A DNA stretch of 50,140 bases. It comes from Acetonema longum DSM 6540. GTDB taxonomy: Bacteria > Bacillota > Negativicutes > Sporomusales > Acetonemataceae. Location: NCBI RefSeq assembly GCF_000219125.1, contig NZ_AFGF01000079.1, forward strand, positions 1 through 50,140. Reading direction: 5' to 3'. Both the position numbers and the translations under genes were made by a program. This document shows, piece by piece, positions 5,173 to 26,499 of this stretch (position 1 is its first letter; every line of letters begins with the position of its first letter). A model generated the notes under the pieces. The model made no database searches, was not told the origin of the DNA, and saw only the letters and a program-made list of their open reading frames with translations.

Positions 5173-5487
5173 ATGGCGTGGCGGGACGGGCAACAGCAGA
5201 CCCTGGCAGCGGTTTTCATCGGCTTGCTGCTGGCCCGGCAAAAAAAACCGGCTGAACTGAATCAATTGCTGCACTTTCTCCTGACTATCTGCAGCGTAGC
5301 CGGTAGTTCAACTGCCCAGGCCGGCGATTGGTCTGATGCGTCCCCGGGGGCCGAATCGGACCGGCATCAAGAGCAAAATCTGCAATCCCAGATGGATACT
5401 CTGAAACAAAGTCTTGGCAGGCTGGAATCCAGGGTTCAGAGGCAGGCACTGGGTTGGAAACCGGTCTGCCGGCCTTGCCGGAAATAA
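5173..5487 (+). CDS. Small protein of unknown function
   Basis: 104 aa from the ATG at 5173, chosen because GAGGTGG at 5161-5167 is well placed for it; a GTG at 5164 is in frame but overlaps that site. I do not recognise the family. The N-terminal third is moderately hydrophobic (TLAAVFIGLLLA), a second hydrophobic stretch is LLHFLLTICSVAG, and the region around residues 65-92 is heptad-like and polar (QNLQSQMDTLKQSLGRLESR), suggesting a short coiled coil. It ends CRPCRK, a possible CXXC pair. It may be a small membrane-associated or secreted protein. It is flanked by the divergent efflux operon and another unknown gene. Coding is supported by the promoter and ribosome site only. Confidence 0.5.
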   Translation: MAWRDGQQQTLAAVFIGLLLARQKKPAELNQLLHFLLTICSVAGSSTAQAGDWSDASPGAESDRHQEQNLQSQMDTLKQSLGRLESRVQRQALGWKPVCRPCRK

Positions 5488-5579
5488 TGCTGCGGCAGGA
5501 AATATGGAAATAGATGTGGAATTTAAGTGATACATACATCATCCAAATTTGACAAATTTCACGGAAGGGGGAATTTCTT

Positions 5580-6206
5580 TTGCAGTATCTCTACATGTCG
5601 AGGATACTCAGAAACTTTTTACTGTTGCTTTTCATTCTTGCTGCTGTTACAGCCGGCAGTTCAGCCGATGCGGCTCCGGAAAAGATTCTGATCATGCCGA
5701 ATATCGGCTATGTAAAACTGCCGGGGGACATTAATCTCACCCCTCTTAAAAGCACTACCGGTCCGGCCTGGGATTTGGCAGGCCAAGACCAGGATAAGGG
5801 TAAGGCAGTCTCCCGCACCGCCCGCTTGACGGCCTCCGAATATCCACCCGCTAGTCTGGGAGTGGACAAGTCCCTGTTCACCACCACCGCCCGCCCGCAG
5901 AGCGGACAGGCCGCTCAGGTCGGAGATGCCGTCAAGCGGTATATGACCCGTTATCTGGCGCAAAACGGCGGCAAGTTGTTAAACTTTTATCCGACCGAGA
6001 CCGCCCCTATTGGCAACCGCCGGGCCTGGGCCTTTTCCATGCGGGCGGACCTGGGTTACGAAGGCGCCTCTTCGGTATTTATCAAAACCTATATGCTGGT
6101 TACCGACACTCGGGTGACCGAAGTGATGCTGGTCTGTCCCGACAGTGACCGTCGCTACTGGGGGCCGATGCTAAGCCGGGCCATGGCCACCTCCGGGGGC
6201 CGTTGA
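5580..6206 (+). CDS. Secreted protein of unknown function; stop codon inside a repeat
   Basis: 208 aa from a TTG at 5580, preceded 9 nt upstream by GGAAGGGGG; an internal ATG at 5595 is an alternative. The N terminus is a clear signal peptide: basic residues, then FLLLLFILAAVTAGSSADA with a probable cleavage after ADA. The rest is soluble, with no motif I can name. It contains KRYMTRYLAQNGGKLLNFYP and a C-terminal beta-rich part (VFIKTYMLVTDTRVTEVMLV). It probably acts outside the cytoplasmic membrane. The gene ends ...GGR-stop, where the last Arg codon and TGA lie in the sequence CCGTTGAAAAAGG, the left end of the window's repeat family. Function is unknown. Confidence 0.7.
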   Translation: MQYLYMSRILRNFLLLLFILAAVTAGSSADAAPEKILIMPNIGYVKLPGDINLTPLKSTTGPAWDLAGQDQDKGKAVSRTARLTASEYPPASLGVDKSLFTTTARPQSGQAAQVGDAVKRYMTRYLAQNGGKLLNFYPTETAPIGNRRAWAFSMRADLGYEGASSVFIKTYMLVTDTRVTEVMLVCPDSDRRYWGPMLSRAMATSGGR

Positions 6207-6226
6207 AAAAGGATCGTCTGCATCGC
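6200..6226. repeat. Modular hairpin repeat, copy 1 (left arm only)
   Basis: CCGTTGAAAAAGG followed by a CGTCTGCATCGC-like stretch matches the left arm of the fuller copies at 12305 and 13119. No matching right arm follows, so this looks like a decayed or partial copy. It overlaps the last two codons of the secreted-protein gene. A separate perfect inverted repeat AAACTTT-TAC-AAAGTTT follows at 6227-6243. Confidence 0.55.
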
Positions 6227-6246
6227 AAACTTTTACAAAGTTTAGG

Positions 6247-6275
6247 TTGCGCGGCTTCCTTTCATGTGATATAAT
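6247..6275 (+). promoter_or_regulatory. Sigma-A promoter of rpmE
   Basis: TTGCGC (6247-6252), 17 nt, TATAAT (6270-6275). The start site would fall about 40 nt before the rpmE ATG. The perfect inverted repeat AAACTTT-TAC-AAAGTTT (6227-6243) lies just upstream of the -35 box and might be a regulator site. Confidence 0.65.
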
Positions 6276-6320
6276 CATTAAACGTGAGAGTGGTTTGAGC
6301 AAAGCGAGGTGCAGCATAGA

Positions 6321-6524
6321 ATGAAAGAAAAAATTCACCCCCAATATGGTGAAGCCAAAGTGATATGTGGTTGCGGCAATACCTTTACAACCGGTTCGGT
6401 AAAAAAAGAATTGCGTGTAGACGTATGTTCCGCCTGTCATCCTTTTTTCACAGGACAACAGCGTAATATGGCGGCTCGCGGTCGTATCGAGAAATTCAAC
6501 AAACGTTACGGCCAGGAAGGCTAA
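6321..6524 (+). CDS. rpmE: 50S ribosomal protein L31 (zinc-binding form)
   Basis: 67 aa from the ATG at 6321, which has GCGAGGTG upstream and gives the normal start [20 protein letters not shown]31 bridges the two ribosomal subunits. The zinc-ribbon cysteines are present (CGC near residues 16-18, CSAC near 36-39), marking the zinc-containing paralogue rather than the zinc-free RpmE2 form that is induced by zinc shortage. It has its own promoter and a hairpin after the stop, so it is probably transcribed alone. It opens the conserved rpmE-prfA-prmC block. Confidence 0.96.
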
Positions 6525-6563
6525 TTTGCCTATCTCTATACTTTTTTACGCCAAAAACCTAAA

Positions 6564-6590
6564 GGCAGAGCAGAAATGCTCTGCTCTATT
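6564..6590 (+). terminator. Probable terminator after rpmE
   Basis: GCAGAGCA-GAAA-TGCTCTGC (6565-6572 with 6577-6584) is a perfect 8-bp hairpin with a GAAA tetraloop, followed by a T-rich tail (TCTATTTATAT). The tail is not a clean T run, so termination may be partial. Confidence 0.55.
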
Positions 6591-6626
6591 TATATACATT
6601 AGAAATTTGAGAGGAAGAAAGCCATC

Positions 6627-7544
6627 GTGAAACCTAAAGTCTATATCGGCGGTCAGGCGGTGATTGAAGGCGTGATGATGCGTGGCCCGAAAGAAATCGC
6701 CACTGCCGTGCGGGAACCGTCCGGAGAGATTATCCTGCAAAAAGACGTATTCACATCCATTACCGACCGCTTTCCTGTCTTAAAAAAGCCCATGCTGCGT
6801 GGCGTGGTTTCTTTGGCCGAATCGCTTGTATACGGTCTCAAGGCCCTTTCCTTTTCCGCTCAGGCGGCGGGAGAAGAGGGGGAGCAGCTTTCTACCAAAG
6901 AGATCGTCTTAACCATGCTGTTTGCTCTGGGGCTGGCAGTTCTGCTGTTTATCGCCATTCCTACCTTTGCGGCCAAATATATTTATAGTGCCGTCAGCGA
7001 TCCCTTCCTCCTGAATCTGTTTGAAGGACTGCTCAGACTGGTCATTTTTCTCGCCTATATCGTTGCTATTTCTCAAATGAAAGATATTCAACGGGTTTTT
7101 GCCTATCATGGCGCTGAGCATAAAACCATCCATGCTTATGAAGCCGGAGCACCGCTGGACCCGGAGCATGTCCGGGGCTACAGCCGCCTGCATCCTCGTT
7201 GTGGCACCAATTTTCTTCTGATTGTGATGGTAATCAGCATCATTACCTTTGCTTTTCTTGGATGGCCTAGTTTATTCTGGCGCATCCTGTCCCGGATCCT
7301 CTTGATGCCGCTGGTGGCCGGGATATCCTACGAGATCATCCGCTTTGCCGGACGCAGTCAAAACCGGCTGGTAGCCTGTATCGTAACGCCTGGGTTGTGG
7401 TTGCAGTATCTGACCACCCGGGAACCGGATGACAGCCAGATCGAAGTAGCCATCCGGGCCCTGGAAGCCGTCAAACCGGCGGAAACCGTTGTACCTGACA
7501 GGGATTCAAATCGAGCCAATCCAGGGGTGAATAGCGATGCTTGA
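6627..7544 (+). CDS. DUF1385 membrane protein, YqhQ family
   Basis: 305 aa from a GTG at 6627 with a purine-rich site (GAGAGGAAG) upstream. The family hallmark is visible at the start: [14 protein letters not shown] (about residues 8-21). The protein then has several membrane segments (about residues 95-115, 135-155, 195-215 and 220-240) and the conserved [15 protein letters not shown] and [10 protein letters not shown] stretches between them. The His, Glu and Cys in these stretches suggest metal or substrate binding, but no biochemical role is established for the family that I can state. It commonly precedes rpmE or prfA in Firmicutes. It overlaps prfA by 8 nt, so translation is coupled. Confidence 0.88.
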
Positions 7545-8599
7545 AAAATTACAAGCTATTGAAGACAAGTATTTAGAGTTGGAAGGCTTGATTAGCAATC
7601 CGGCTGTCATGCAGGATATGGATACCTGGCAGAAGCATACCAAGGCTCACTCCAAGCTGACCGGTGTGGTCGCCAAGTTCCGTGAATATAAGCAAATGCA
7701 AAAAGATCTGACCAATACCCGGGAAATGCTGAAAGAAAGCGATCCGGAACTGCGGGAAATGGCTCAAGCAGAATTCGAAGACTTGAAAAGCCGCAATGAA
7801 GAATTAGAGCAGGAATTGCATATTCTGCTCCTGCCTCGGGACCCTAACGACGAGAAGAATGTCATCGTGGAGATTCGTGGCGGGGCCGGCGGCGATGAAG
7901 CGGCTCTTTTCGCCGGTGATATGTTCCGCATGTATACCCGTTATGCCGACACCCAGGGCTGGCGCACTGAGGTTCTCGACGCTAACCCTACCGGTCTGGG
8001 CGGGTTTAAAGAAGTCATTTTTCTGATCGAAGGTGACGGGGTATACAGCAAAATGAAATATGAAAGCGGCGTGCACCGGGTGCAGCGGGTGCCTGAAACC
8101 GAGGCCAACGGCCGCATTCATACCTCCACCATCACCGTGGCAGTGATGCCTGAAGCTGAAGAGGTAGAGGTAGACATCAGCCCCAATGACCTGCGGATTG
8201 ATACCTATTGCGCTTCCGGCGCCGGCGGTCAGCATATCAATAAAACCGAGTCGGCCGTCCGGATTACCCATCTGCCTACCGGCGTGGTAGTACAGTGCCA
8301 GGATGAGAAATCCCAGTTGAAAAACCGGGATAAGGCTATGAGGGTCCTCGGCCAAAGTTTTGGAAATTGCCCAGGAATCCCAGCGGGCCGAGGAAGCTGC
8401 GGCCAGAAAAAGCCAGGTAGGCACAGGCGACCGCAGCGAGCGTATCCGTACCTACAACTTCCCGCAGGGAAGGGTCACCGACCACCGGATTGGTTTGACT
8501 CTGCACAAACTGGATTTTATCTTGAACGGTGACCTGGAGGAATTGATTCAGGGTCTAATTACGTACTACCAAAGTGAACGAATGAAACAAATGGAGTAA
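7537..8599 (+). CDS. prfA: Peptide chain release factor 1, with an apparent frameshift near 8350
   Basis: RF1 reads UAA and UAG stop codons and releases the finished peptide. The reading frame from 7537 shows the stop-codon recognition motif PET in RVPETE and the catalytic GGQ at residues 230-232 ([18 protein letters not shown]). After ...DKAMRVL (8349) that frame becomes nonsense and stops at 8532. The true C-terminal part continues in another frame from GCC at 8351 ([20 protein letters not shown]... to 8599). Two bases appear missing: CTC-CGG-GCC is expected and CTC-G-GCC is read. With two bases restored the protein would have 354 aa, normal for RF1. Because RF1 is essential, a sequencing or assembly error is the likeliest cause. 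It lies 4 nt before prmC, which encodes its methylase. Confidence 0.93.
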
Positions 8600-8603
8600 A
8601 AAA

Positions 8604-9488
8604 GTGAGCGACGCGAAGAAAAACAATTGGACGATCGGGGAAATTCTCCAGTGGACCAAGCAGTATTTCAGCGAAAAAGGCGTGGAGAATCCGCGCCTGG
8701 ATGCTGAAGTACTGCTTTCTGATATTGTAAAGCTGGATCGGCTGCGGCTGTACGTGAATTTTGATCAGCCCCTGCAGCAGCAGGAATTAGACCGTTACCG
8801 GGATTATGTGAAAAAACGGGTTATGCGGCTGCCGGTAGCTTATATTCTGGGACGCAAGGAGTTCATGGGACTGGAGTTTGCCGTAAATCCGGCGGTGCTC
8901 ATCCCACGGCCGGAAACTGAACTGCTGGTGGAAACCGTTTTAAAGCGGCTTGAAGGCTGTCAGAATCCTGCGATCTTAGACATTGGCACCGGCAGCGGCG
9001 CTATTATTCTCAGTGTCTTAAAACTATTGCCTGCGGCAACCGGTCTGGCCGTGGATATTTCTCCCCAGGCTTTGGCAGTGGCCCGGGACAACGCCGACCG
9101 GCTGGGAGTGGCGGAACGGGTAACCTTCCGGGAGAGCAATTTGCTGACGGCGCTGGGAGAACCGGATAAGCCAGCCGGAGGGTTTGACGCCATCCTGTCC
9201 AATCCTCCTTACATTAAAGATGAAGACATTCCGGTTCTCGCGCCGGAAGTGGGAAAGGAACCCCGAACCGCTTTAGCCGGCGGCAGGGATGGTCTGGATT
9301 TTTACCGCCTGATCCTGCAAGAGGCCGCCGGCTATCTGCAGCCGGAAGGCTTTCTGGCCTGGGAAATCGGAGCGGGTCAGTCGGAAGACATCAGCCGGCT
9401 TGCCCGGGAATCAGGCTGGACCGTGACCGACGTACTCAAGGACCTCGCCGGCATTGAGCGGGTTATGGTTCTAATAATTGGTAAATAA
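8604..9488 (+). CDS. prmC: Release factor glutamine methyltransferase (PrmC/HemK)
   Basis: 294 aa from a GTG at 8604, with GGAG at 8593-8596 inside the end of prfA. It transfers methyl from S-adenosylmethionine to the Gln of the GGQ motif in RF1 and RF2. The SAM-binding motif DIGTGSGAI follows an N-terminal helical domain, and the catalytic NPPY is at residues 200-203 (LSNPPYIKDED). The length is standard. It is coupled to prfA by position, the usual partnership. In Bacillus subtilis spoIIR follows nearby; here a hairpin repeat and ywlC follow instead. Confidence 0.95.
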   Translation: MSDAKKNNWTIGEILQWTKQYFSEKGVENPRLDAEVLLSDIVKLDRLRLYVNFDQPLQQQELDRYRDYVKKRVMRLPVAYILGRKEFMGLEFAVNPAVLIPRPETELLVETVLKRLEGCQNPAILDIGTGSGAIILSVLKLLPAATGLAVDISPQALAVARDNADRLGVAERVTFRESNLLTALGEPDKPAGGFDAILSNPPYIKDEDIPVLAPEVGKEPRTALAGGRDGLDFYRLILQEAAGYLQPEGFLAWEIGAGQSEDISRLARESGWTVTDVLKDLAGIERVMVLIIGK

Positions 9489-9512
9489 ATATTGAAAGGA
9501 AGATATAGGACT

Positions 9513-9611
9513 TTGTTGAAAAATTATCTGTGGTCTAGAATCTGGGACCGTCCAAAAAGGTTCAGATGCTAGGTAAGAACAACGCAGATGAGCCTTTTTC
9601 AACGGTCCCCC
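9513..9611. repeat. Modular hairpin repeat, copy 2 (short form)
   Basis: A long inverted repeat: 9543-9569 (GGGACCGTCCAAAAAGG and on to CAGATGC) pairs with 9584-9610 (GCAGATGAGCC to CAACGGTCCC), with only about 14 nt of loop. The left flank from 9513 (TTGTTGAAAAATTATCTG) is a diverged form of the flank seen at 46203 (GTTGCAAAACTCATCTG), so the element extends beyond the hairpin. The right end lies 9 nt from the start codon of ywlC. The rest of the prmC-ywlC gap holds nothing else I can identify. Confidence 0.85.
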
Positions 9612-9619
9612 TATGATAT

Positions 9620-10669
9620 ATGAAAACACGTTACATCTATGTTAACCCCCAAGACCCGGAGCAAAACGCCATTGATCTGGCGGCCGAAGTGATCCGCCGG
9701 GGCAGACTGGCGGCCTTTCCCACAGAAACAGTGTATGGATTGGGCGGCAACGGTCTTGACCCGGAAGCCGTCCGGAGCATTTTTGCCGCCAAAGGACGGC
9801 CCGGGGACAATCCGCTGATTTTACATATTGCCGCCACGGAGGAAGCCGAGCGGCTGGTCAAAACCGTTACACCCAATGCCGCCGCCTTGATGCAGCGCTT
9901 TTGGCCCGGCCCTCTCACCGTTGTGCTGGAGAAGTCAGACCTCGTTCCTTTGGTTGTAACCGGCGGATTGAATACTGTGGCTATCCGCCTGCCTGACTCC
10001 TTGGTGGCCAGGAGACTGATCAGCGCCGCCGGCGTTCCGGTTGCCGCCCCCAGTGCCAATACCTCCGGTCGCCCCAGTCCGGCCAATGCCAAAGCTGTAT
10101 TGAGCGACCTGGATGGTAAAATTGATATGGTATTGGATGCCGGTCCCTGCCGAATCGGCGTGGAATCCACTGTGGTAGACTGCACCACGCCGGTGCCTAC
10201 ACTCTTAAGACCGGGCGGTATTACTCTGGAAATGCTGCTGGAGGTACTTGGAGAGGTAGAAGCTGCCCCGGCTCTGTCGGGCTTACATACCACAGTTCCC
10301 CGCTCTCCCGGCATGAAATACACTCATTATGCCCCCAGTGCTCCCATGAGGCTGGTGGAAGCTACGGATTCGGCGATGCCGGTTATCCTGGAGCGGTACA
10401 TTGCCGAGGCTCAGGCAACAGGACAGGTGGTGGGGGCTTTGGTCTCCGGTGAGACAGCGGAACGTTTGCCTGACGGGGTGGTCAGCGCCGTCTATGGACC
10501 CCGCAGCCGGCCGGATATGATTGCAGCCCGGCTGTATGACTGCCTGCGTCAATTTGACAATACCCCGGTGGATGTGATCTTTGCCGAAGGCATTGCCGAC
10601 AAGGGACTGGGACTGGCAGTCATGAACCGCATGCGCAAAGCCGCAGGCTATGACATTATTCGGGAGTAA
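9620..10669 (+). CDS. ywlC: Threonylcarbamoyl-AMP synthase (Sua5/YwlC type)
   Basis: 349 aa. It makes threonylcarbamoyl-AMP from threonine, bicarbonate and ATP for the t6A modification at position 37 of ANN-decoding tRNAs. The YrdC domain occupies about residues 15-205 (FPTETVYGLGGNG, AKGRPGDNPLILH, APSANTSGRPSP). The linker SPGMKYTHYAPSAPM (near residue 233) and a C-terminal Sua5 domain follow, so this is the long two-domain form. The ATG at 9620 lies only 9 nt after the right end of a hairpin repeat and no good ribosome site precedes it; ACGGTCCCC is the only sequence in place. This suggests insertion of the repeat displaced the original leader. Confidence 0.93.
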   Translation: MKTRYIYVNPQDPEQNAIDLAAEVIRRGRLAAFPTETVYGLGGNGLDPEAVRSIFAAKGRPGDNPLILHIAATEEAERLVKTVTPNAAALMQRFWPGPLTVVLEKSDLVPLVVTGGLNTVAIRLPDSLVARRLISAAGVPVAAPSANTSGRPSPANAKAVLSDLDGKIDMVLDAGPCRIGVESTVVDCTTPVPTLLRPGGITLEMLLEVLGEVEAAPALSGLHTTVPRSPGMKYTHYAPSAPMRLVEATDSAMPVILERYIAEAQATGQVVGALVSGETAERLPDGVVSAVYGPRSRPDMIAARLYDCLRQFDNTPVDVIFAEGIADKGLGLAVMNRMRKAAGYDIIRE

Positions 10670-16230: not shown

Positions 16231-17334
16231 ATGACAACAGGGACTTCTTTATGGGATTTATTTGAGCAAAAAAGCATGAGTCGCCGCTCTTTTCTCAAGA
16301 CCTGCACAGCCCTTACCGCCCTGATGGGATTACCGGCGGCCATGGTGCGCCAAGTGGTAGAAGCCGCCGAAAAAAAAGCCCTGCCGGTCGTCATCTGGCT
16401 CCATGGCCACGAATGCACCGGCTGTGATGAAGCTTTTATCCGATCGGTTTCGCCGATGGCTTCGGACCTTATCCTTAACATGATCTCCCTCGAATACTCC
16501 GACACCCTGGCGGCTGCTGCCGGTGAGCCATTTGAACATCACCTGCAGGAGACCATGAAAAAGTACGCCGGTCAATACATTCTGGCTGTCGAAGGCGGTG
16601 TGCCTACCGCCGATAACGGTATCCACTGCATGGTGGGTGGCTGGCCGTTCCTGACAGTGCTTAAAGAAGCGGCTGCCGGTGCCGCCGCTATTATTGAATA
16701 TGGTTCCTGCGCCGCTTGGGGCGGCATCCAGGCCGCCGGGCCCAACCCCACGAAATCGGTGGCTGTGAGCGATGTTGTGCGCGGCAAACCCATTGTTAAA
16801 GTCCCGGGCTGTCCTCCCATCCCCGAAGTTATGACCGCCGTCGTAATGCACTACGCGCTGTTCAGCCAATTGCCGCCTCTTGACAGCCAAGGCCGGCCCA
16901 AGCAGTTTTTCGGCAACCGCATTCACGATACCTGTTACCGCCGGCCATTCTTTGATTCCGGCATGTTCGCGGAGAGATTTGACGACGCCGGGGCTAAAGC
17001 CGGCTGGTGTCTGTATAAACTCGGCTGCCGCGGACCGGAAACCTATAACTCCTGCGGCAATCTGCGCTGGTGGAACGGGTTATCCTACCCCATTCAGTCC
17101 GGTCACGGCTGCATTGGCTGCAGCAGCAAGAATTTTTGGGATCAAGATCCCTTCTATGAGAGACTGCCCAACATTCCCGTTCCGGGCACGAATGCCAACG
17201 CCGACATGGTAGGCGCCGTCGTTGCCGGTGCAGCCACAGCCGCTGTTGCGGTTCATGCCGCCCTGTCAGTAGCCCAGAAAAAATCGCGACAAACCAACGA
17301 ACAAGCTGACAACGTAAGGAGGCCGGAAGCATGA
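16231..17334 (+). CDS. hyaA: [NiFe] hydrogenase small subunit, Tat-exported, membrane-anchored
   Basis: 367 aa. It carries the iron-sulfur relay that takes electrons from the NiFe site of the large subunit. A twin-arginine signal MSRRSFLKTCTALTAL (about residues 15-30) shows export of the folded pair. Cluster ligands are visible: HECTGCDE, YGSCAAWGG, VPGCPPIPEV, then the His/Cys set around RIHDTCYR, KLGCRGPETYNSC and SGHGCIGCSS. A C-terminal hydrophobic helix (GAVVAGAATAAVAVHAAL) anchors it. The two extra cysteines of oxygen-tolerant enzymes are absent (CTGCD and AWGGI instead of CTCC and GC), so this should be a standard oxygen-sensitive group 1 uptake enzyme. It overlaps hyaB by 4 nt. Confidence 0.96.
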   Translation: MTTGTSLWDLFEQKSMSRRSFLKTCTALTALMGLPAAMVRQVVEAAEKKALPVVIWLHGHECTGCDEAFIRSVSPMASDLILNMISLEYSDTLAAAAGEPFEHHLQETMKKYAGQYILAVEGGVPTADNGIHCMVGGWPFLTVLKEAAAGAAAIIEYGSCAAWGGIQAAGPNPTKSVAVSDVVRGKPIVKVPGCPPIPEVMTAVVMHYALFSQLPPLDSQGRPKQFFGNRIHDTCYRRPFFDSGMFAERFDDAGAKAGWCLYKLGCRGPETYNSCGNLRWWNGLSYPIQSGHGCIGCSSKNFWDQDPFYERLPNIPVPGTNANADMVGAVVAGAATAAVAVHAALSVAQKKSRQTNEQADNVRRPEA

Positions 17335-19211
17335 AACGAGTGGTAGTTGATCCCGTTACCCGGATTGAGGGACACCTTCGGGTGGAAATAAAAGTAGACG
17401 AAGCCAGCGGCAAGGTTCAGGATGCTCTGTCCAGCGGCACTGCCTGGCGCGGCATCGAATTGATTGTAAAAGACCGGGATCCCCGTGATGTCTGGGCATA
17501 TGTCCAACGCATCTGCGGCGTGTGTACAACCGTCCATTCCCTGGCATCGCTGCGGGCGGTGGAAGACGCCCTGGGCATTGAGATCCCGAAAAATGCCAAC
17601 TACATCCGCAATATTATGGCTGCCAGTCAGAATATCCACGATCACCTGGTTCATTTTTACCACTTGCATGCCCTGGACTGGGTCAGCCCGGTGGAAGCCC
17701 TTAAGGCCGATCCGGCGGCTGTCGCTGCGCTGCAAAACGCCGTATTGGAGAAATACCGCCTGCCGCTGGCCGGTCCGGTGGAATTGGATACCGACGCCTA
17801 TCCCAAGGACTTTCCCAAGGCAACCACCTTATATTTTAAAACCATCCAGGACAAAGTCAGGAAAATCGTCGAGAGCGGCCAACTTGGCATCTTCGCCGGC
17901 CAGTGGTGGGACCATCCCGACTATAACCTCTTGCCGCCGGAAGTTCACCTCATGGCTGTGGCCCATTATCTGAACATGCTGGATCGCCAGCGGGAACTGG
18001 TGGTCTCTCATGTCGTCTTCGGCGGGAAGAATCCTCATCCGCATTTCATCGTCGGCGGTATGCCTTCTTCCATTTCCATGAATGATATGAATGCTCCGAT
18101 CAACACCGAGCGGTTGGCGGTCGTCGATACATCGATCAATTTGACCCTCAACCTGGTCAATTATTTCTACCTGCCCGACCTGCTGGCCATTGGTGACATT
18201 TACGTAAAAAAAGGCTACGTGGACGGCGGCGGTTTGGCCAAGGAACGGGTGCTGGGCTACGGTGACTTTCCTGACGAGCCCTACACCGGCATCACCAACG
18301 GTGATTTTCATAAAAAACTTCTGCTGCGCAGCAACGGCGTCGTCGAAAATTTCGGTCAAGGCCTGGCCAAAGCCGAGTACTTCAACCTGGAAGGCAAGGA
18401 TTATGCCGACCCGGCCATTCTCGCAGAAGGCGTCGAGCATTCCTGGTACACTTATCCCGAACCCGGCCAGGACGTCCATCCCTGGGCCGGAGCGACCGAG
18501 CCCCAATATACCGCCGGAAAAGAATGGAAGAATCTTGACGAACAAGGCAAGTACTCCTGGATCAAGACGCCAAAATGGCGGGGAAAAACGGCCGAAGTCG
18601 GTCCTTTGGCCCGTTACATCATTATCTATACCAAGGTGAAAAAAGGCCTGATTGAGCCGACCTGGGCTGAAAAAATGATTGTTGACCAAATCGAAGCCGT
18701 ATCCAAAGTCCTTAACGCGCCGCCTGAGGTATGGATGCCGACCACCGTCGGACGAACGGCTGTCCGCGGCCTGGAGGCCCAGCTCTGGGCTTACATCAAC
18801 AAATATTACTTCGACAAACTTATCAAAAACATCAAGAGCGGTGACACTGCCGTGGCCAATACCGCTAAATGGGAACCAGCCACCTGGTCCAAAGAGGCCA
18901 GAGGTATTGGCCTCCACGAAGCCCCCCGGGGCGCCCTCGGACACTGGATTGTTATCAAAGACGGAAAAACCGCCAACTATCAGGCCATCGTCCCTACCAC
19001 CTGGAACGCCTGCCCTCGGGACGACCAAGCCGGTTATGGGGCCTATGAAGCCAGTATGATCGATACCAAAATTAAAATCGCCGACAAACCCCTGGAAGTT
19101 CTAAAAGCTATTCGTTCTTTTGACCCATGTCTCGCCTGTGCGACTCACCTGTATGACGTTCAGGGCAACAAGCTTAGTATTGTGCACACTGATCCCTACA
19201 TAAAGCTATAG
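17331..19211 (+). CDS. hyaB: [NiFe] hydrogenase large subunit
   Basis: 626 aa. It holds the NiFe(CN)2CO active site. Nickel ligands are Cys62 and Cys65 in RICGVCTTVHS and Cys600 and Cys603 in DPCLACATH. His606 ends the mature protein; the 20 residues after it (beginning LYDVQGNK) would be removed by the maturation protease encoded at 21344. The conserved N terminus VVDPVTRIEGHLRVE is present. It is exported together with the small subunit, having no signal of its own. Start ATG overlaps the hyaA stop. The 11-nt gap to the cytochrome b gene, with a GGAGGG site, indicates one operon. Confidence 0.97.
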   Translation: MKRVVVDPVTRIEGHLRVEIKVDEASGKVQDALSSGTAWRGIELIVKDRDPRDVWAYVQRICGVCTTVHSLASLRAVEDALGIEIPKNANYIRNIMAASQNIHDHLVHFYHLHALDWVSPVEALKADPAAVAALQNAVLEKYRLPLAGPVELDTDAYPKDFPKATTLYFKTIQDKVRKIVESGQLGIFAGQWWDHPDYNLLPPEVHLMAVAHYLNMLDRQRELVVSHVVFGGKNPHPHFIVGGMPSSISMNDMNAPINTERLAVVDTSINLTLNLVNYFYLPDLLAIGDIYVKKGYVDGGGLAKERVLGYGDFPDEPYTGITNGDFHKKLLLRSNGVVENFGQGLAKAEYFNLEGKDYADPAILAEGVEHSWYTYPEPGQDVHPWAGATEPQYTAGKEWKNLDEQGKYSWIKTPKWRGKTAEVGPLARYIIIYTKVKKGLIEPTWAEKMIVDQIEAVSKVLNAPPEVWMPTTVGRTAVRGLEAQLWAYINKYYFDKLIKNIKSGDTAVANTAKWEPATWSKEARGIGLHEAPRGALGHWIVIKDGKTANYQAIVPTTWNACPRDDQAGYGAYEASMIDTKIKIADKPLEVLKAIRSFDPCLACATHLYDVQGNKLSIVHTDPYIKL

Positions 19212-19222
19212 GAGGGAAAGCA

Positions 19223-20005
19223 ATGAACAGTTCGAAAGAATATTATGTTTTCAGTCCTTGGCTGCGGATATTTCACTGGATCATGGCGTACAGCGTCCCC
19301 ATTCTCTTCTTTACCGGTTTGTATATCGGCAACCCGTTTTTCATCGGCAGTCAGGGCATTGAGCCGACTTACGCCTTCCGCCAGACTCTGTCCATGGAAA
19401 CCATCCGGTATATTCATTTTATCACGGCGTATGTTTTTGTCGGCTCCTTTATTTTGCGGATTTACGGCTTTATCATGAACAAGGGAGACCGCCTGTTTCC
19501 CCGTTTCTGGACCAAAGAATACTGGCTGGGCGCGAAGGAAGTGACCCTTCACTATTTATTTCTGTTGCCCCAGCATAAACCTTACCTGAGAAATCCCCTG
19601 GCCCGGACTTCCTACGTGGCCCTGTATGCCCTGATAGCGATTGAAATCATTACCGGTTTCGCCATGTACTATATGGTCAACCCGGACAGTTGGGGCGCCA
19701 AAATCTTCGGGCCCTGGAACGACTGGCTGGGTGGTGAATACTATGTTCATCTCATTCATCATTATGCGGCTTGGATGATTATGCTGTCTGCCATCGGCCA
19801 TATCTATATGGTGGTGCGGGCCGACTTTATAGAACGGGAAGGGGAAATATCCAGCATGTTCTCGGGAGTGAAGTTTCTGCGCCATGAACCTGTGGACCTG
19901 AAAGAAATCGCGGATGAAGCGGAGGAACGGCCTGATCGCGTCGAGCAACCGGGCGATGCTTCCCCTGCGTACTCCGCTAACAAGGCTGCGCCGGCAACAG
20001 ATTGA
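19223..20005 (+). CDS. hyaC: Hydrogenase cytochrome b subunit (HyaC family)
   Basis: 260 aa. It should take electrons from the small subunit to the quinone pool and anchor the enzyme in the membrane. Four main membrane segments are seen, with histidines suited to bind two b hemes: WLRIFHWIMAY, IRYIHFITAYVF, VHLIHHYAAWM and AIGHIYMVV. The C-terminal about 50 residues are polar and acidic (KEIADEAEERPD) and look cytoplasmic. Family length is about 235-260. It follows hyaB in the usual order. Confidence 0.93.
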   Translation: MNSSKEYYVFSPWLRIFHWIMAYSVPILFFTGLYIGNPFFIGSQGIEPTYAFRQTLSMETIRYIHFITAYVFVGSFILRIYGFIMNKGDRLFPRFWTKEYWLGAKEVTLHYLFLLPQHKPYLRNPLARTSYVALYALIAIEIITGFAMYYMVNPDSWGAKIFGPWNDWLGGEYYVHLIHHYAAWMIMLSAIGHIYMVVRADFIEREGEISSMFSGVKFLRHEPVDLKEIADEAEERPDRVEQPGDASPAYSANKAAPATD

Positions 20006-20034
20006 CGTCACATTAAATAATGGGGGGATTTCTC

Positions 20035-20271
20035 ATGTGTAAGTTCTGCGGCTGCGGGCCTAGCGGCGGCAATACGCAAATCAAGCTTATCGTGAATGGT
20101 TTTGGCAATGCCAAAGAAGTGGAAAAGAGTTTGTTGGGATTACCGGGAGTATATCATGTCCACGTTCATGCCCATGACGGACAGACAACCGTTGATTACA
20201 ATCCGGCCCGGATCTCGCCGTCCGACATCACCGCAAAATTGGCGGAGCGCGGCCTGCAGGCCGTCGTTTAA
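20035..20271 (+). CDS. Small HMA-fold protein with an N-terminal CXXCGC metal motif
   Basis: 78 aa from the ATG at 20035, chosen over an in-frame ATG at 20020 because the GGGGGG ribosome site at 20022-20027 overlaps that earlier codon. It starts MCKFCGCGPSGGN. This CXXCGC motif is what HypB proteins such as that of E. coli carry at their N terminus for high-affinity nickel binding. The rest (about residues 16-78) reads as a heavy-metal-associated (HMA) fold, with IKLIVNGFGNAKEVEKSLLG and VTTVDYNP-like strands, but lacks the usual MXCXXC loop (GFGNAKE is in its place). The downstream HypB lacks its own CXXCGC. A nickel carrier working with HypA and HypB is the natural inference; no function is proven. 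Confidence 0.8.
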   Translation: MCKFCGCGPSGGNTQIKLIVNGFGNAKEVEKSLLGLPGVYHVHVHAHDGQTTVDYNPARISPSDITAKLAERGLQAVV

Positions 20272-20276
20272 GCAAA

Positions 20277-20618
20277 ATGCACGAAATGGCGATTGCGCAA
20301 GGCGTATTGGATATCACGCTGGATAACGCGGCTGGTCATCAGGCGAAAAAAGTAACAAAAATAAACCTTTTGATCGGGCAAATGACCGGAGTGGAACCGG
20401 AAGCACTGCGCTTTTGTTTCAGTACGGTTGCCCAAGGCACCATAGCGGCTGAAGCTGAACTGGCCATCACCGGTGTGCCTCTGGTGGCTGAGTGTCAGGA
20501 TTGCGGGCGGAAGTTTGACGTGGAAGGGTACCGGTTTCTTTGCTCAGCCTGCGGCTCGGCCAAAGTGGCGGTCATCTCCGGCCGGGAACTCAGAGTGGAC
20601 TATCTGGAGGTAGACTAA
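20277..20618 (+). CDS. hypA: Hydrogenase maturation nickel chaperone HypA
   Basis: 113 aa. HypA binds Ni(II) through the N-terminal MHE motif (His2) and delivers it with HypB to the hydrogenase large subunit. The structural zinc site is visible as two Cys pairs, CQDCG and CSACG, near residues 74-93. The length is standard. It begins 5 nt after the small CXXCGC protein and its stop touches the hypB start, so the three genes are tightly coupled. Confidence 0.96.
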   Translation: MHEMAIAQGVLDITLDNAAGHQAKKVTKINLLIGQMTGVEPEALRFCFSTVAQGTIAAEAELAITGVPLVAECQDCGRKFDVEGYRFLCSACGSAKVAVISGRELRVDYLEVD

Positions 20619-21320
20619 TTGGAAATTCAGGTGAAAGAAAATATTCTGGGCAAAAACGATCAAATTGCCGCCGAAATCAATGCTCTCTTGTCCAGTTATA
20701 ACATTTTCGCGTTGAACTTAATGGGATCCCCCGGATCCGGCAAAACATCCCTCTTGGAACACACGATTGCGGCATTGGGGAACGAACTGCGCCTGGCTGT
20801 GATTGAGGGGGACCTGTTTACTTCCAAGGATGCCGACCGCATCGCCCGGCATGGAGCGCCGGTGGTCCAGATCAATACCAGCGGCGGTTGTCATCTGGAT
20901 GCGAACATGGTGCAAGAGGCCATAACCAAGCTGGACTTAAGCGGGCTTGATCTGATTATCATTGAAAATGTCGGCAATTTAGTCTGCCCGGCCGAATTTA
21001 ATATAGGTGAAGACGCCAGAGCTACGGTCCTGAGCATTACCGAGGGCGAGGATAAACCGCTGAAATATCCGCTTGTCTTTAAAGAAGCCGGGATAGTGAT
21101 TTTGAATAAGATTGATTTGTTGCCTTACACCAGTTTTGATATGGCGGGGGCAACCGAAGATATTGTCAGTCTTAACCCGGCGGTTGTTATTGCTCCTGTT
21201 TCCTGCCGGACTGGCGCCGGATTGAATGACTGGACAGAGTGGCTAAAACGGCAGACAGCCCATAAAAGGGCGGGACTGGCCCCAAGCCGATTCACTGCCG
21301 GTCAGGGCAAATTTGGATGA
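20619..21320 (+). CDS. hypB: Hydrogenase maturation GTPase HypB, without the N-terminal CXXCGC motif
   Basis: 233 aa from a TTG at 20619, directly after the hypA stop, with GGAGGT 8 nt upstream. HypB is a dimeric SIMIBI GTPase that drives nickel insertion. Seen are the P loop GSPGSGKT (36-43), EGDLFTSKDADR, the metal-site stretch INTSGGCHLDA, ENVGNLVCPAEF and the guanine-specificity NKID. The N terminus (MEIQVKENILGKND) has no CXXCGC and no His-rich tail; that motif occurs instead on the separate protein at 20035. The C-terminal tail after about residue 215 is basic and poorly conserved. Confidence 0.96.
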   Translation: MEIQVKENILGKNDQIAAEINALLSSYNIFALNLMGSPGSGKTSLLEHTIAALGNELRLAVIEGDLFTSKDADRIARHGAPVVQINTSGGCHLDANMVQEAITKLDLSGLDLIIIENVGNLVCPAEFNIGEDARATVLSITEGEDKPLKYPLVFKEAGIVILNKIDLLPYTSFDMAGATEDIVSLNPAVVIAPVSCRTGAGLNDWTEWLKRQTAHKRAGLAPSRFTAGQGKFG

Positions 21321-21343: not shown

Positions 21344-21826
21344 GTGAAACGGATAACAGTGTTGGGCATCGGCAACATTCTGCTGCAGGATGAAGGCTTT
21401 GGCGTCAGAGTTATTGAGGAACTGCAGCGGCGTTACCGGTTTACCGAACCCGTGCAGGTTCTGGATGGCGGTACCCTGGGCATGGAGCTACTGCACTTTA
21501 TTACCGGGTCTGCCCGGCTGTTGGTCATCGATGCCATTGACGGCGGCCAGCCGCCCGGCAGTTTCTACCGCCTGACCGGCGAGGCCGTCCAGGCCTATTT
21601 TCAGGATAAGGTATCACTGCACGAATTGGGCCTGAAAGATGTGCTGGCCGCGCTCAAAGTATTGGATGAGCCGGTTGAGGAAGTGGTCATCATCGGAGTG
21701 CAGCCGGCAGTCCTTGACCTGGGTCTCGATCTGACGCCCGCCGTTGTCGCTATGATCGAACCGGCCATAGCGGCGGTTATCGCTCAGCTCAAAGGCTGGC
21801 AGGCAGAGGTGTGGGAAAATGGTTGA
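21344..21826 (+). CDS. hyaD: Hydrogenase maturation endopeptidase
   Basis: 160 aa from a GTG at 21344, with AGGAGA upstream. After nickel is inserted it cleaves the C-terminal extension of the large subunit behind the DPCxxCxxH histidine. The family signature is present: GIGNILLQDEGFGVRVIEEL with the nickel-sensing Glu, DGGTLGMELL, and VIDAIDGG with the second acidic ligand; His in LHELGLKDVL is the third. Standard length. Its end overlaps hypF by 8 nt. Confidence 0.93.
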   Translation: MKRITVLGIGNILLQDEGFGVRVIEELQRRYRFTEPVQVLDGGTLGMELLHFITGSARLLVIDAIDGGQPPGSFYRLTGEAVQAYFQDKVSLHELGLKDVLAALKVLDEPVEEVVIIGVQPAVLDLGLDLTPAVVAMIEPAIAAVIAQLKGWQAEVWENG

Positions 21827-24101
21827 GGAGACCGGTGCCACGCTGGGAAACATTGAGCGGATCGGGATTCATATTGCCGGGATTGTGCAGGGGGTGGGGT
21901 TCCGCCCCTTTGTGTATAATCTGGCGCGGCGGCATCATTTAAGGGGTTGGGTGCTGAATGACGGGGCTGGGGTTAGGATCGAAGCTGAGGGAGCGAGTCA
22001 TGCCCTGCGGGAATTTGTGGCGGGCTTGACAGCCGAGGCGCCACCATTGGCCGTGATTGCGGATATGATGATCATAGCGCTGCCGTTAAAAGGCGAAACA
22101 CAATTTGAAATTAAATCAAGCCTGATATCTGTCACTCATTCAGCAACTATATCCCCGGATATTGCTACCTGCCCCGACTGTCGCCGGGAAATGGCCGACC
22201 CCAATAACCGGCGGTTCGGTTACCCTTTTACCAATTGTACTAACTGCGGTCCCCGTTATACTATTATTACCGGTGTTCCCTATGATCGGATGCGTACCAC
22301 TATGGACCCCTTTGCCATGTGTCCGGCCTGTCAGGCCGAGTATGATGATCCTGCCAACCGGCGGTTTCACGCCCAACCCAATGCCTGTCCGGTGTGCGGG
22401 CCCCGGTATCGCCTGCTCAACTCCGATGGCCAAGAAGCGGCGGGCCAGCCCTTAACAGAGGCGCGGCGTCTTCTTAAAAACGGCGCCATTGTGGCTGTCA
22501 AAGGAATCGGCGGCTATCACCTGGTTTGCGATGCAATGAACCAACAAGCGGTGACACTTTTACGGACCAGAAAGATTCGCGAAGATAAGCCTTTTGCCGT
22601 GATGGGCGGCAGCCTGGAGTCTGTCCGGCGGCACTGCCTGGTGTCACAGGCGGAAGAAACTTTTCTTACCGGCGCTGTTCGTCCGATTGTTTTACTGGCC
22701 AAGACAGCCGGTTACAGCCTGGCTGAGGCGGTAGCGCCGGGCAATCCTTGTCTTGGCGTGATGCTGCCCTATGCGCCTGTGCATTGGCTGTTGCTGGCGC
22801 CTGAGGATGTCTGGGTCATGACCAGCGGCAATAGCAGCGACGAGCCGATAGCTTATACTGATGGGGATGCCATAGCCAGACTGGCGGGGATTGCCGACTA
22901 TTTTCTGATTCACAACCGCGAAATTCATTACCGGGCCGATGACTCAGTGGTCCGGATATTTAATGATAAACCCTATATCCTGCGCCGGAGCCGGGGCCTG
23001 GCCCCGGCTCCAATCCGCCTGGTACGGCCAGGTCCACCGGTATTGGCCTGCGGCGGCGAACTGAAGAATGCCTTTTGTTTGACTAAAGGAGACCAAGCCT
23101 TCGTCAGCGTCCATATGGGCGACCTGGAGAATATGGCTGCCTTTGAATCTTATAAAGCAACCATCGGACACTGCCAAGGTCTGTTGGGCATCCGGCCGGA
23201 AGTCGTGGCCTGTGATTTACATCCCGAATACTTGTCGACGAAATATGCTGATCATTGGAATCTTCCCCGGATCGCCGTGCAGCACCATCACGCCCATATC
23301 GCTTCCGTCCTGGCCGAACATGGCCTGGAGGAACCGGTTATCGGCATTGCCTTTGACGGGACCGGCTACGGCAGTGACGGACACCTGTGGGGCGGTGAAT
23401 TCTTGCTGGCCGACTGCCGGGAATTTACTCGTCTGGCCCACTGCCGGTATTTGCCGCTGCCGGGCGCGAGCCGGGCCATTAAAGAGCCCTGGCGGCCGGC
23501 GGCCTGGATGCTCCAGGAACTGTATAATGCAGATTTTGTGAATCTGGACATACCTCTGGCCCGATTGCTTCCGGAGGGCTGGCAAATGACCATCCAGGCG
23601 GCGGCGAAAGGAATCAATGCCCCGCTCACTTCCAGTGCCGGGAGGCTGTTCGATATTGCGGCGGCCATTCTCGGTATCCGGACCCATATCCATTACGAAG
23701 GCCAGGCGGCGGTAGAACTCGAACTGGCGGCAACCGGCGCTCGTGGGGACACTCTGCCTTATGATATCACCGCCGGCAACGTCCGGGAACTGGACTTTCG
23801 ACCCACCTTCGCCGCTATGGTGCAGGCCATAGGGCAGGGGCGCGGAACAGCCGAACTGGCGGCGGCGTTTCATACAACCCTGGCGGCGGCCATCACCGAT
23901 ATGACCCGGCGGTTAAGTAAAACAACGGGCATTCGCAAAGTGGCCTTGAGCGGCGGCGTTTTTCAGAATATGACCCTTTTGCGGCAAGTCGCCGGATTGC
24001 TGGAAAAAGATTTTACCGTACTGATACACCGCCAGGTGCCAACCAATGACGGCGGCTTATGCCTGGGCCAGGCGGCGGTCGCGATCGAAAGGAGCAGATA
24101 A
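21819..24101 (+). CDS. hypF: Carbamoyltransferase HypF
   Basis: 760 aa, full length. HypF uses carbamoyl phosphate and ATP to carbamoylate the C-terminal Cys of HypE, the first step in making the cyanide ligands. Domains in order are an acylphosphatase domain (IAGIVQGVGFRPFVYNLA, residues about 13-100), two zinc fingers (CPDC, CTNCG, CPAC, CPVCG), a YrdC-like domain (KGIGGYHLVCDA, VMTSGNSSDEPI), and a Kae1-like domain with metal ligands in HHHAHIASVLAEHG and the nucleotide part ALSGGVFQN. It overlaps the protease gene by 8 nt and is followed 2 nt later by hypC. Confidence 0.97.
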   Translation: MVEETGATLGNIERIGIHIAGIVQGVGFRPFVYNLARRHHLRGWVLNDGAGVRIEAEGASHALREFVAGLTAEAPPLAVIADMMIIALPLKGETQFEIKSSLISVTHSATISPDIATCPDCRREMADPNNRRFGYPFTNCTNCGPRYTIITGVPYDRMRTTMDPFAMCPACQAEYDDPANRRFHAQPNACPVCGPRYRLLNSDGQEAAGQPLTEARRLLKNGAIVAVKGIGGYHLVCDAMNQQAVTLLRTRKIREDKPFAVMGGSLESVRRHCLVSQAEETFLTGAVRPIVLLAKTAGYSLAEAVAPGNPCLGVMLPYAPVHWLLLAPEDVWVMTSGNSSDEPIAYTDGDAIARLAGIADYFLIHNREIHYRADDSVVRIFNDKPYILRRSRGLAPAPIRLVRPGPPVLACGGELKNAFCLTKGDQAFVSVHMGDLENMAAFESYKATIGHCQGLLGIRPEVVACDLHPEYLSTKYADHWNLPRIAVQHHHAHIASVLAEHGLEEPVIGIAFDGTGYGSDGHLWGGEFLLADCREFTRLAHCRYLPLPGASRAIKEPWRPAAWMLQELYNADFVNLDIPLARLLPEGWQMTIQAAAKGINAPLTSSAGRLFDIAAAILGIRTHIHYEGQAAVELELAATGARGDTLPYDITAGNVRELDFRPTFAAMVQAIGQGRGTAELAAAFHTTLAAAITDMTRRLSKTTGIRKVALSGGVFQNMTLLRQVAGLLEKDFTVLIHRQVPTNDGGLCLGQAAVAIERSR

Positions 24102-24103
24102 AA

Positions 24104-24325
24104 ATGTGTCTAGCGGTGCCGGCAAAGGTTATCGATATCATTGATCTTTTAGCCACGGTGGAAGTCGGCGGGATCACCCGTCAAATCAGCCTGATGCTCT
24201 TGCCTGACGTGACAATCGGGGATTTTGTCCTGGTGCATGCCGGTTTTGCCATTCAGAAGGTAGACCAGGAAGAAGCCCGGCGTACTACGGAGTTGCTTAA
24301 GGAATTGGCCGGCTATGCTGAATAA
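24104..24325 (+). CDS. hypC: Hydrogenase maturation chaperone HypC
   Basis: 73 aa from the ATG at 24104, which puts the essential Cys at position 2 (MCLAVPAKVID) and has AAAGGAG upstream. HypC binds iron with HypD and carries the Fe(CN)2CO unit to the large subunit. GDFVLVHAGFAIQKVD is the conserved core. Standard length. It overlaps hypD by 11 nt, consistent with their action as a complex. Confidence 0.96.
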   Translation: MCLAVPAKVIDIIDLLATVEVGGITRQISLMLLPDVTIGDFVLVHAGFAIQKVDQEEARRTTELLKELAGYAE

Positions 24326-25412
24326 CCGGCAGGAGACAATGCGGCAAGCCGCCGCATTTTTTACCGGAGAAATTGATCGGCTGATCACCAAACCAGTGCG
24401 ACTGATGGAAGTGTGCGGCACCCATACTGTAGCCATTTTCCGGGCAGGCATCCGTCAACTGCTGCCGCCTCAGGTGGAACTGGTCAGCGGGCCGGGCTGC
24501 CCGGTGTGCGTCACGCCCAACGATTATCTCGACACTGCTGTGGCCTATAGCCGCTTGCCAGACGTTATCATCACCACTTTCGGCGACATGCTGCGGGTGC
24601 CGGGGTCGGCGTCCAGCCTGGCCGCGGAAAAGGCGGCCGGTTCTGACATTCGGATTGTTTATTCACCCCTGGAAAGCCTGGATATTGCCGCCGCCCATCC
24701 TGAAAAGAAGATTATTTTTCTGGCGGTCGGATTCGAGACAACGGCCCCCCTGGCTGCCGCTACCGTGCTGGAGGCCGAGAGACGCGGCCTTGCGAATTTT
24801 TACGTGCTGTCGGCGCATAAGCTGGTGCCGCCGGCTCTCAGTGCCCTGCTTGCCGACCGGGAGGTCAGGGTGGACGGCTTTTTATTGCCGGGGAATGTGA
24901 GCGCAATGATCGGAGAACAGCCTTATTGCTTCCTGGCAGAGAAATATCACCTGCCGGGGGTCATTGCCGGGTTTGATCCCCTGGACATCCTGCAGTCGGT
25001 ATACATGCTGGCCAGGCAGATCCATGCCAGCACGGCCATAGTGGAAAACCAATACCGCCGTATCGTCAGACATGAAGGCAATCCGGCGGCGCGGCAGGTA
25101 CTAACCCAAGTCTATGAAACTGTCGATGCGGCCTGGCGGGGCATGGGGGTTATCCCGGCTTCGGGACTGGGAGTCAATGACAGGTATCGTCGTTTTAACG
25201 CTTTGGCCGCTTTGCCGCTTCAGGTGGAAAAGGCCTCCGAACAGGCTGCCTGCCGGTGCGGTGAGGTTTTGCGCGGCATCATTAAACCAGCCGACTGTTT
25301 GTTATTTGGTAAAGCCTGCGTTCCCGAGCATCCGGTGGGATCCTGCATGGTATCGGTGGAAGGAACCTGCGCGGCCTGGTATAAATATGGAGCAGGAAAG
25401 TGGCAAGTTTGA
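24315..25412 (+). CDS. hypD: Hydrogenase maturation iron-sulfur protein HypD
   Basis: 365 aa. HypD, with a [4Fe-4S] cluster, is the scaffold on which the Fe(CN)2CO moiety is built together with HypC. The family motifs are MEVCGTHT, GPGCPVCVTP, TFGDMLRVPGS, FLAVGFETTAP and the C-terminal CRCGEVLRG and FGKACVPEHPVGSCMVSVEG with the conserved cysteines. Length is standard. It starts inside hypC and is followed by hypE after 58 nt. Confidence 0.97.
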   Translation: MLNNRQETMRQAAAFFTGEIDRLITKPVRLMEVCGTHTVAIFRAGIRQLLPPQVELVSGPGCPVCVTPNDYLDTAVAYSRLPDVIITTFGDMLRVPGSASSLAAEKAAGSDIRIVYSPLESLDIAAAHPEKKIIFLAVGFETTAPLAAATVLEAERRGLANFYVLSAHKLVPPALSALLADREVRVDGFLLPGNVSAMIGEQPYCFLAEKYHLPGVIAGFDPLDILQSVYMLARQIHASTAIVENQYRRIVRHEGNPAARQVLTQVYETVDAAWRGMGVIPASGLGVNDRYRRFNALAALPLQVEKASEQAACRCGEVLRGIIKPADCLLFGKACVPEHPVGSCMVSVEGTCAAWYKYGAGKWQV

Positions 25413-25470
25413 ATAGTGTGGTTAACATCCTGGTAGTGCGTGTTTTTCTGCAGTGTGGAAGGTGGCAGGT

Positions 25471-26499
25471 ATGAATAATATGAATGATATAAATGATAAA
25501 CGGATTCGGCTGGCCCACGGCAGCGGCGGCAAGTTGAGCCATGATCTGGTGACAGGCGTGATGCTGCCCGCTTTCGCCAACGCAGCGCTGAATGAACTCC
25601 ATGACGGCGCCAGGATTAACATGCCGGGAGTTAAACTGGCATTTACTACCGATTCTTATGTGGTAAAGCCCTTGTTTTTTGCCGGCGGTAACATCGGCAA
25701 GCTGGCGGTTTGCGGCACGGTCAATGATCTGGCCATGTGCGGCGCCGATCCCCACTACCTTTCCGCCGGATTTATTATCGAAGAGGGGTTTCCGGTTGCC
25801 GACCTGATCCGGATTGTCGAGTCCATGCAGGCAGCTGCTTCGGAAGCGGGTGTTGCTATTGTCACCGGAGACACCAAGGTGGTGGAAAAAGGTGCGGTTG
25901 ACGGCATCTATATCAATACCGCCGGCATTGGCGCGGTCATCGATGGGACCGGCATATCTCCGACGCGGGTTCGGCCGGGACAGGACATCATACTCAGCGG
26001 TCCGGTGGGTAATCATGCGGTAGCGATTATGGCTCTGCGCCATGGCCTGGTACTGCCGCAAACAGTGACCAGTGACTGTGCGCCCTTAAATGGACTGGTA
26101 AAAGAACTGTTGTCGGCTGTTCCCGATGTTGCCGTACTTCGCGATCCCACCAGGGGCGGCCTGGCGACAACCCTTAATGAAATCGCCCAACAGGCGGCTG
26201 TAGGGATTCTCGTCGAAGAAGCGGCGATTCCGGTTCAGCCCGAGGTAGCGGCGGCGTGTGACATCCTTGGCTTTGATCCGCTTTATCTGGCCAACGAGGG
26301 GAAAATGATAATTTTTTCCCAGCCTCAGGCCAGTGAACGGCTGCTGGCTATTTTGAAAGGGCATAAATACGGCAAAGAGGCCGGTATTATCGGTAAGGTT
26401 ACCGACTCTCCGGCGGGACAGGTCGGTCTGCGGACCTTAATCGGCGGCATCAGGCTTTTGGATATGCCGGTAGCCGATCAGCTTCCCCGAATTTGTTAG
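25471..26499 (+). CDS. hypE: Hydrogenase maturation protein HypE
   Basis: 342 aa from the ATG at 25471, with AAGGTGG just upstream; an in-frame ATG at 25480 is also possible. HypE takes the carbamoyl group from HypF on its C-terminal cysteine and dehydrates it with ATP to a thiocyanate that donates CN. The last residues are PRIC, as required. Other features are LAHGSGGKLSHDLV, the AIR-synthase-like DSYVVKPLFFAGG, ITGDTKVVEKG-like VTGDTKVVEKG and RDPTRGGLATTLNEIA. It is the last gene of the hydrogenase operon; a terminator follows 20 nt later. Confidence 0.97.
   Translation: MNNMNDINDKRIRLAHGSGGKLSHDLVTGVMLPAFANAALNELHDGARINMPGVKLAFTTDSYVVKPLFFAGGNIGKLAVCGTVNDLAMCGADPHYLSAGFIIEEGFPVADLIRIVESMQAAASEAGVAIVTGDTKVVEKGAVDGIYINTAGIGAVIDGTGISPTRVRPGQDIILSGPVGNHAVAIMALRHGLVLPQTVTSDCAPLNGLVKELLSAVPDVAVLRDPTRGGLATTLNEIAQQAAVGILVEEAAIPVQPEVAAACDILGFDPLYLANEGKMIIFSQPQASERLLAILKGHKYGKEAGIIGKVTDSPAGQVGLRTLIGGIRLLDMPVADQLPRIC

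Follow-up and report, generated by a model that had tools for sequence, protein, structure and literature searches.

A small HMA-fold protein with a HypB-like N-terminal cysteine motif in the [NiFe]-hydrogenase operon of Negativicutes, a candidate metallochaperone

Many HypB proteins lack a high-affinity N-terminal site, and the HMA fold is best known for copper. HypB of E. coli binds Ni(II) via Cys2, Cys5, Cys7 and the N-terminal amine with a subpicomolar Kd, and maturation needs both of its nickel sites (PMC7055735). In Thermus SlyD, nickel is bound by the sequence HGHxH (PMC7055735). The 78-aa protein described here (sP) is similar to the N-terminal site of E. coli HypB (CxxCGC), as it starts with MC, possesses cysteines 2, 5 and 7, and is encoded in an operon with hypA and hypB. 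Unlike E. coli HypB, sP is a separate HMA protein without a GTPase domain, and the HypB linked to it lacks such a site. Similar to copper chaperones of the CopZ/Atx1 type, sP has an HMA fold; however, it lacks the CxxC loop, possesses a VHxHxHDG strand, scores under the CopZ cut-offs and is located in a hydrogenase operon. The MCxxCGC start and the HMA body are shared with Negativicutes proteins that keep the CxxC (L037, L043, L062 and others). In contrast to sP, these proteins have no VHxH and, except for one row, are set apart in the tree by a branch with an SH-aLRT of 99; they are not located near hyp genes and often adjoin a LytR-family gene. Like SlyD, sP would supply HypB with nickel in an accessory role, but SlyD is an FKBP-type isomerase, whereas sP has an HMA fold and Pfam gave no FKBP match in it.

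The window, i.e. the whole stretch of 50,140 nucleotides that was analysed, harbours a [NiFe]-hydrogenase operon (Table 1), in which the genes for the small subunit, the large subunit (LSU), cytochrome b and sP are followed, in this order, by hypA, hypB, hyaD, hypF, hypC, hypD and hypE. An earlier note on this DNA had described a 78-aa HMA-like protein starting with MCKFCGCG and devoid of its own CXXC loop, encoded two genes upstream of a hypB at 20619 that starts without the motif. The reading frame, the Pfam match and the predicted fold agree with this description, and hypA lies between the two genes. The translated N-terminus of sP, MCKFCGCG, is likely the true one, since a ribosome-binding-like run precedes the ATG at 20035, and cysteines 2, 5 and 7 follow the initiator methionine as in the HypB-type site. 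The TTG of hypB is located directly behind the hypA stop, with GGAGG at 20606-20610. No CxxCxC was found upstream of the P-loop in the window HypB, which keeps two G-domain cysteines (GGCHL and LVCPAE).

Table 1. Features of the hydrogenase operon around sP, with positions in the window
Feature	Position	Strand	Basis
[NiFe]-hydrogenase small subunit	16231..17334	+	ORF; sequence and operon position
[NiFe]-hydrogenase large subunit (LSU)	17331..19211	+	ORF; homologue search
Hydrogenase b-type cytochrome gene, constant upstream neighbour of sP	19223..20005	+	TIGR02125 above cut-off
Ribosome-binding-like run GGGGGGA, upstream of the sP ATG	20022..20028	+	Read from sequence
sP, 78-aa HMA-fold protein, proposed metallochaperone	20035..20271	+	ORF, Pfam, fold prediction, PDB fold matches
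MCKFCGC, sP residues 1-7; candidate metal ligands C2, C5, C7 and N-terminal amine	20035..20055	+	Ligands as in E. coli HypB (PMC7055735), by analogy
VYHVHVHAHDG, sP residues 39-49; H41, H43, H45, H47, D48 on strand b2 and turn; second candidate metal site	20149..20181	+	Putative metal binding
hypA, N-terminal MHE retained	20277..20618	+	TIGR00100 above cut-off
hypB, TTG start, without N-terminal CxxCGC	20619..21320	+	TIGR00073 above cut-off
hyaD-type maturation protease	21344..21826	+	TIGR00140 above cut-off
hypF	21819..24101	+	ORF; by sequence
hypC	24104..24325	+	TIGR00074 above cut-off, residues 16-85 of longest ORF
hypD	24315..25412	+	ORF; by sequence
hypE	25453..26499	+	ORF; by sequence

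The Pfam HMA model (PF00403) matched residues 26-70 of sP with 26.6 bits (cut-off 24.8), and AlphaFold predicted a b-a-b-b-a-b fold with a mean pLDDT of 81.8 and values under 50 for residues 1-4 and 6-8. The best PDB fold matches were ATP7B domains and CopZ. In sP the sequence GFGNAK takes the place of the GMTCxxC of HMA proteins, so that the CxxC loop is absent. The CopZ models NF033794, NF033795 and TIGR00003 gave 27.4, 25.9 and 17.0 bits, all below the respective cut-offs of 95, 91 and 62. An assignment of sP as a copper chaperone by family was rejected on account of these scores and the missing CxxC. The HypB model TIGR00073 did not match sP, and the HypB prefix model NF053667 remained below its cut-off (16.8 bits vs 30, E 0.013) and was not used. 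Where the CxxC loop is lost, a row of histidines occurs in a HxHxHDG strand, a second conserved feature missed by the earlier note. Residues 39-44 are a strand in the predicted fold, whose alternation would set the histidines on one face.

Relatives of sP were searched in 250 genomes of the class and in genome contigs, and the best 80 of the 140 contig relatives are assigned to Negativicutes genera or to unclassified Selenomonadales, Veillonellaceae and Bacillota MAGs. The hallmarks of the family are the MCxxCGC start and the VHxHxHDG strand motif. MC..C is present at a possible start codon in 165 of the 166 family matches (ATG in 161), the exception being a 45-aa fragment. Since starts were picked to give MC..C, the conservation of C2 and C5 is fixed by choice; H43 and H45 likewise served to define the VHxH set. 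Among the 86 VHxH representatives, the residues independent of this selection are C7 (85), H47 (83), D48 (81) and G49 (85). The pattern is more than chance, because 165 out of 166 matches begin with MC..C and the unselected C7 is kept in 85 out of 86. The HMA CxxC is absent from all VHxH members, and the relatives of sP form a Negativicutes family separate from the MCxxCGC proteins that keep it. On a tree of 80 columns with many open forks, the hyp-linked rows were strongly clustered (7 changes vs about 36 in shuffles). A profile search of the phylum gave at least 104 bits inside the class and then at most 50 outside. The out-of-class matches inspected were mostly of the CxxC type, L244 alone lacking the CxxC, and no homologues of the window hyp genes were found in their short loci. 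Four MCK(D/E)CGC paralogues (L036, L042, L044 and L046, in G049, G074, G083 and G087) possess ISINN instead of the histidine row and lack the CxxC; beside those in L042, L044 and L046 there is a gene pair that reads as an ABC-type transporter. The search of the open-access literature revealed no description of an sP-type protein.

The co-occurrence sample comprised 251 genomes, including several draft assemblies, and was dominated by one family. Fifty-three of the 72 sP copies were located within 5 kb of both LSU and HypB, two near LSU only and 17 near neither, counts that depend on the match thresholds and on the exclusion of the paralogues without histidines (G074, G083, G087). By genome, sP was present in 66 of the 125 with LSU and HypB, 2 of the 31 with HypB only (both 87% complete), 1 of the 3 with LSU only, and none of the 92 with neither, absence from a draft genome being weak evidence. 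Homologues are therefore not found mostly outside hyp operons, in line with the neighbourhood pointed out in the earlier note. Of the best 80 of the 140 contig loci, 55 have sP next to hydrogenase or hypA genes, and in one more (L160) it follows hypF; the order cytB-sP-hypA-hypB is found in most copies. With genera as units, HypB was detected in 26 of the 27 sP genera vs 57 of 91 overall, counted without a divergent copy in G199. The tie of sP to the [NiFe]-hydrogenase is thus supported. Linkage and co-occurrence are those of a [NiFe]-hydrogenase accessory protein, and co-occurrence is confounded by shared ancestry, since most positive genomes belong to one family.

About a quarter of the sP copies are located outside the operon. 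HypB is encoded elsewhere in 22 of the 24 genomes behind these loci, and PF00374 matches above cut-off were found in all 23 genomes tested, partial or distant in G019 and G091. Genomes G069 and G252 possess sP and full [NiFe] large subunits, and neither HypA nor HypB was detectable in them. They were not accepted as true cases of sP without HypB; an assembly gap is likely, because the G069 assembly is split into about 150 contigs and L127 of G252 is labelled a MAG. In L039 of G069 (5383-9930), sP follows a series of CbiM, PDGLE, SDR, [FeFe]-hydrogenase, small subunit and cytochrome b genes. Single cases include a Nik/Opp-type ABC transporter as neighbour of sP in G044, with proteins below nickel-specific cut-offs, and LarC near sP on the opposite strand in G049. 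The largest off-operon group has sP beside crcB-like, isochorismatase-like and metallo-beta-lactamase-like genes (names read from sequence). This setting is conserved in Quinella-like genomes (L158, L166, L172, L180 and similar), with sP on the opposite strand, and no link to nickel is evident from the predicted genes.

Three natural variants were found within hydrogenase operons or beside hyp genes. His-rich stretches occur in the N-termini of some HypBs, and the diverged sP copy between cytB and hypA in G199 (L200 3499-3765) is reminiscent of them, as a His-rich stretch lies behind its CGC. This copy carries MCATCGCGNHDHHHDHD ahead of a body that Pfam did not recognise. In G238 (L283 4272-4709) sP is decayed; nothing is left of the HMA body behind a retained MCKECGCG, and the reading frame continues into hypA in frame, with no stop in between. 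A HypA with an MCKECGC tail is conceivable there, despite a ribosome-binding-like run of hypA's own. Genome G022 (L284 3793-4104) encodes behind hypE a 104-aa MCKTCGC protein without VHxH, without CxxC and without a Pfam match, a second kind of hyp-linked relative.

Since sP offers the residues of E. coli HypB on a separate soluble body, the simplest interpretation is that it captures nickel and hands it over to HypA or the short HypB. There is an even chance, in our estimate, that the uptake [NiFe]-hydrogenase of Negativicutes has in sP its own small soluble metallochaperone, probably for nickel. For the metal, its ligands, the partner and the direction of transfer we infer the following. The flexible N-terminus would capture cytosolic nickel through C2, C5 and C7, possibly joined by the N-terminal amine as in E. 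coli HypB, and the histidine row on strand b2 (H43, H45, H47, with D48) may hold or relay the ion. Loaded sP would pass nickel to HypA or the motif-less HypB, which would load the large subunit, so that sP would work like the HypB N-terminal site or SlyD. Residues and spacing equal to those of the high-affinity nickel site of E. coli HypB argue for a nickel chaperone, as do the loss of the CxxC of copper-type HMA proteins, the retention of C7 and H47, the location in the operon, the co-occurrence with hydrogenase genes and the His-rich stretch of the G199 copy. MCxxCGC by itself is not nickel-specific evidence, because HMA paralogues without hyp linkage bear it. Against a nickel chaperone, sP is absent from 59 of the 125 genomes that possess LSU and HypB, the 17 copies mentioned above are near neither gene, and very little of sP is left in G238. 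In addition, sP accompanies the structural genes and not hyp in G193 and G145, where it stays after cytB and hypB is on another contig. More tentatively, sP may represent a so far undescribed family of nickel-specific HMA chaperones, in which the C2/C5/C7 site and the histidines of the strand take the place of the copper CxxC, and which would supply HypA and those HypBs that lack a high-affinity site.

Alternatively, sP could act on another metal (copper, zinc or cobalt) as its chaperone or buffer and protect or serve cells that express the hydrogenase, with a nickel link by neighbourhood only. The nearest folds and sequence relatives of sP are copper proteins, and outside the class a related MCxxCG HMA protein (L253) is followed closely by an 847-aa reading frame that also matches HMA and probably encodes a metal ATPase. 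Nevertheless, this is unlikely, as no VHxH member possesses the copper CxxC, sP scores far under the CopZ cut-offs, and the main set is surrounded by hyp and hydrogenase genes. The position of sP after cytB in G193 and G145, together with a copy in G069 that follows the hydrogenase-type cytochrome b of a [FeFe]-hydrogenase gene set, would fit an assembly or redox partner of structural subunits, e.g. cytochrome b, without a part in nickel insertion. We consider such a role quite unlikely, since the conserved feature is two adjacent candidate metal-ligand motifs, and sP follows hypF in L160 and adjoins HypE/HypD-type genes far from LSU in G054. A dispensable hitch-hiker without a specific role in hydrogenase maturation is very unlikely; near deletion in G238 and the 59 genomes without sP would agree with it, but sP is conserved across several families and is retained off-operon, where nearly all genomes keep HypB and hydrogenase.

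The earlier note had also read the arrangement as a split or re-assorted nickel-loading module, and an origin by a split from HypB was not supported. CxxCxC before the P-loop was found in none of the 151 HypB reading frames of the class (some from overlapping loci), with or without sP, and the N-terminal motif in none of the 26 HypBs from other classes of the phylum, so that sP does not coexist with a motif-bearing HypB among those examined. The model NF053667 found nothing in 31 relatives. As HypBs lack the motif irrespective of sP and HMA paralogues carry it, nothing indicates that HypB lost or donated it. MCxxCGC belongs to the HMA lineage of sP, and sP probably arose within this lineage when the motif was already there, not by splitting of HypB. 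That the nickel domain of HypB split off and joined an HMA body is hardly credible despite the identical motif and the motif-less neighbouring HypB, given the absence of the motif from all HypBs examined, its presence on HMA paralogues without hyp linkage, and the NF053667 score far under cut-off.

If sP is a nickel metallochaperone as proposed, the HMA fold would have been turned toward another metal by an exchange of binding residues. Where HypBs without a high-affinity site obtain their nickel is a question that a small carrier with the same cysteine pattern, encoded in the hydrogenase operon, makes directly testable.
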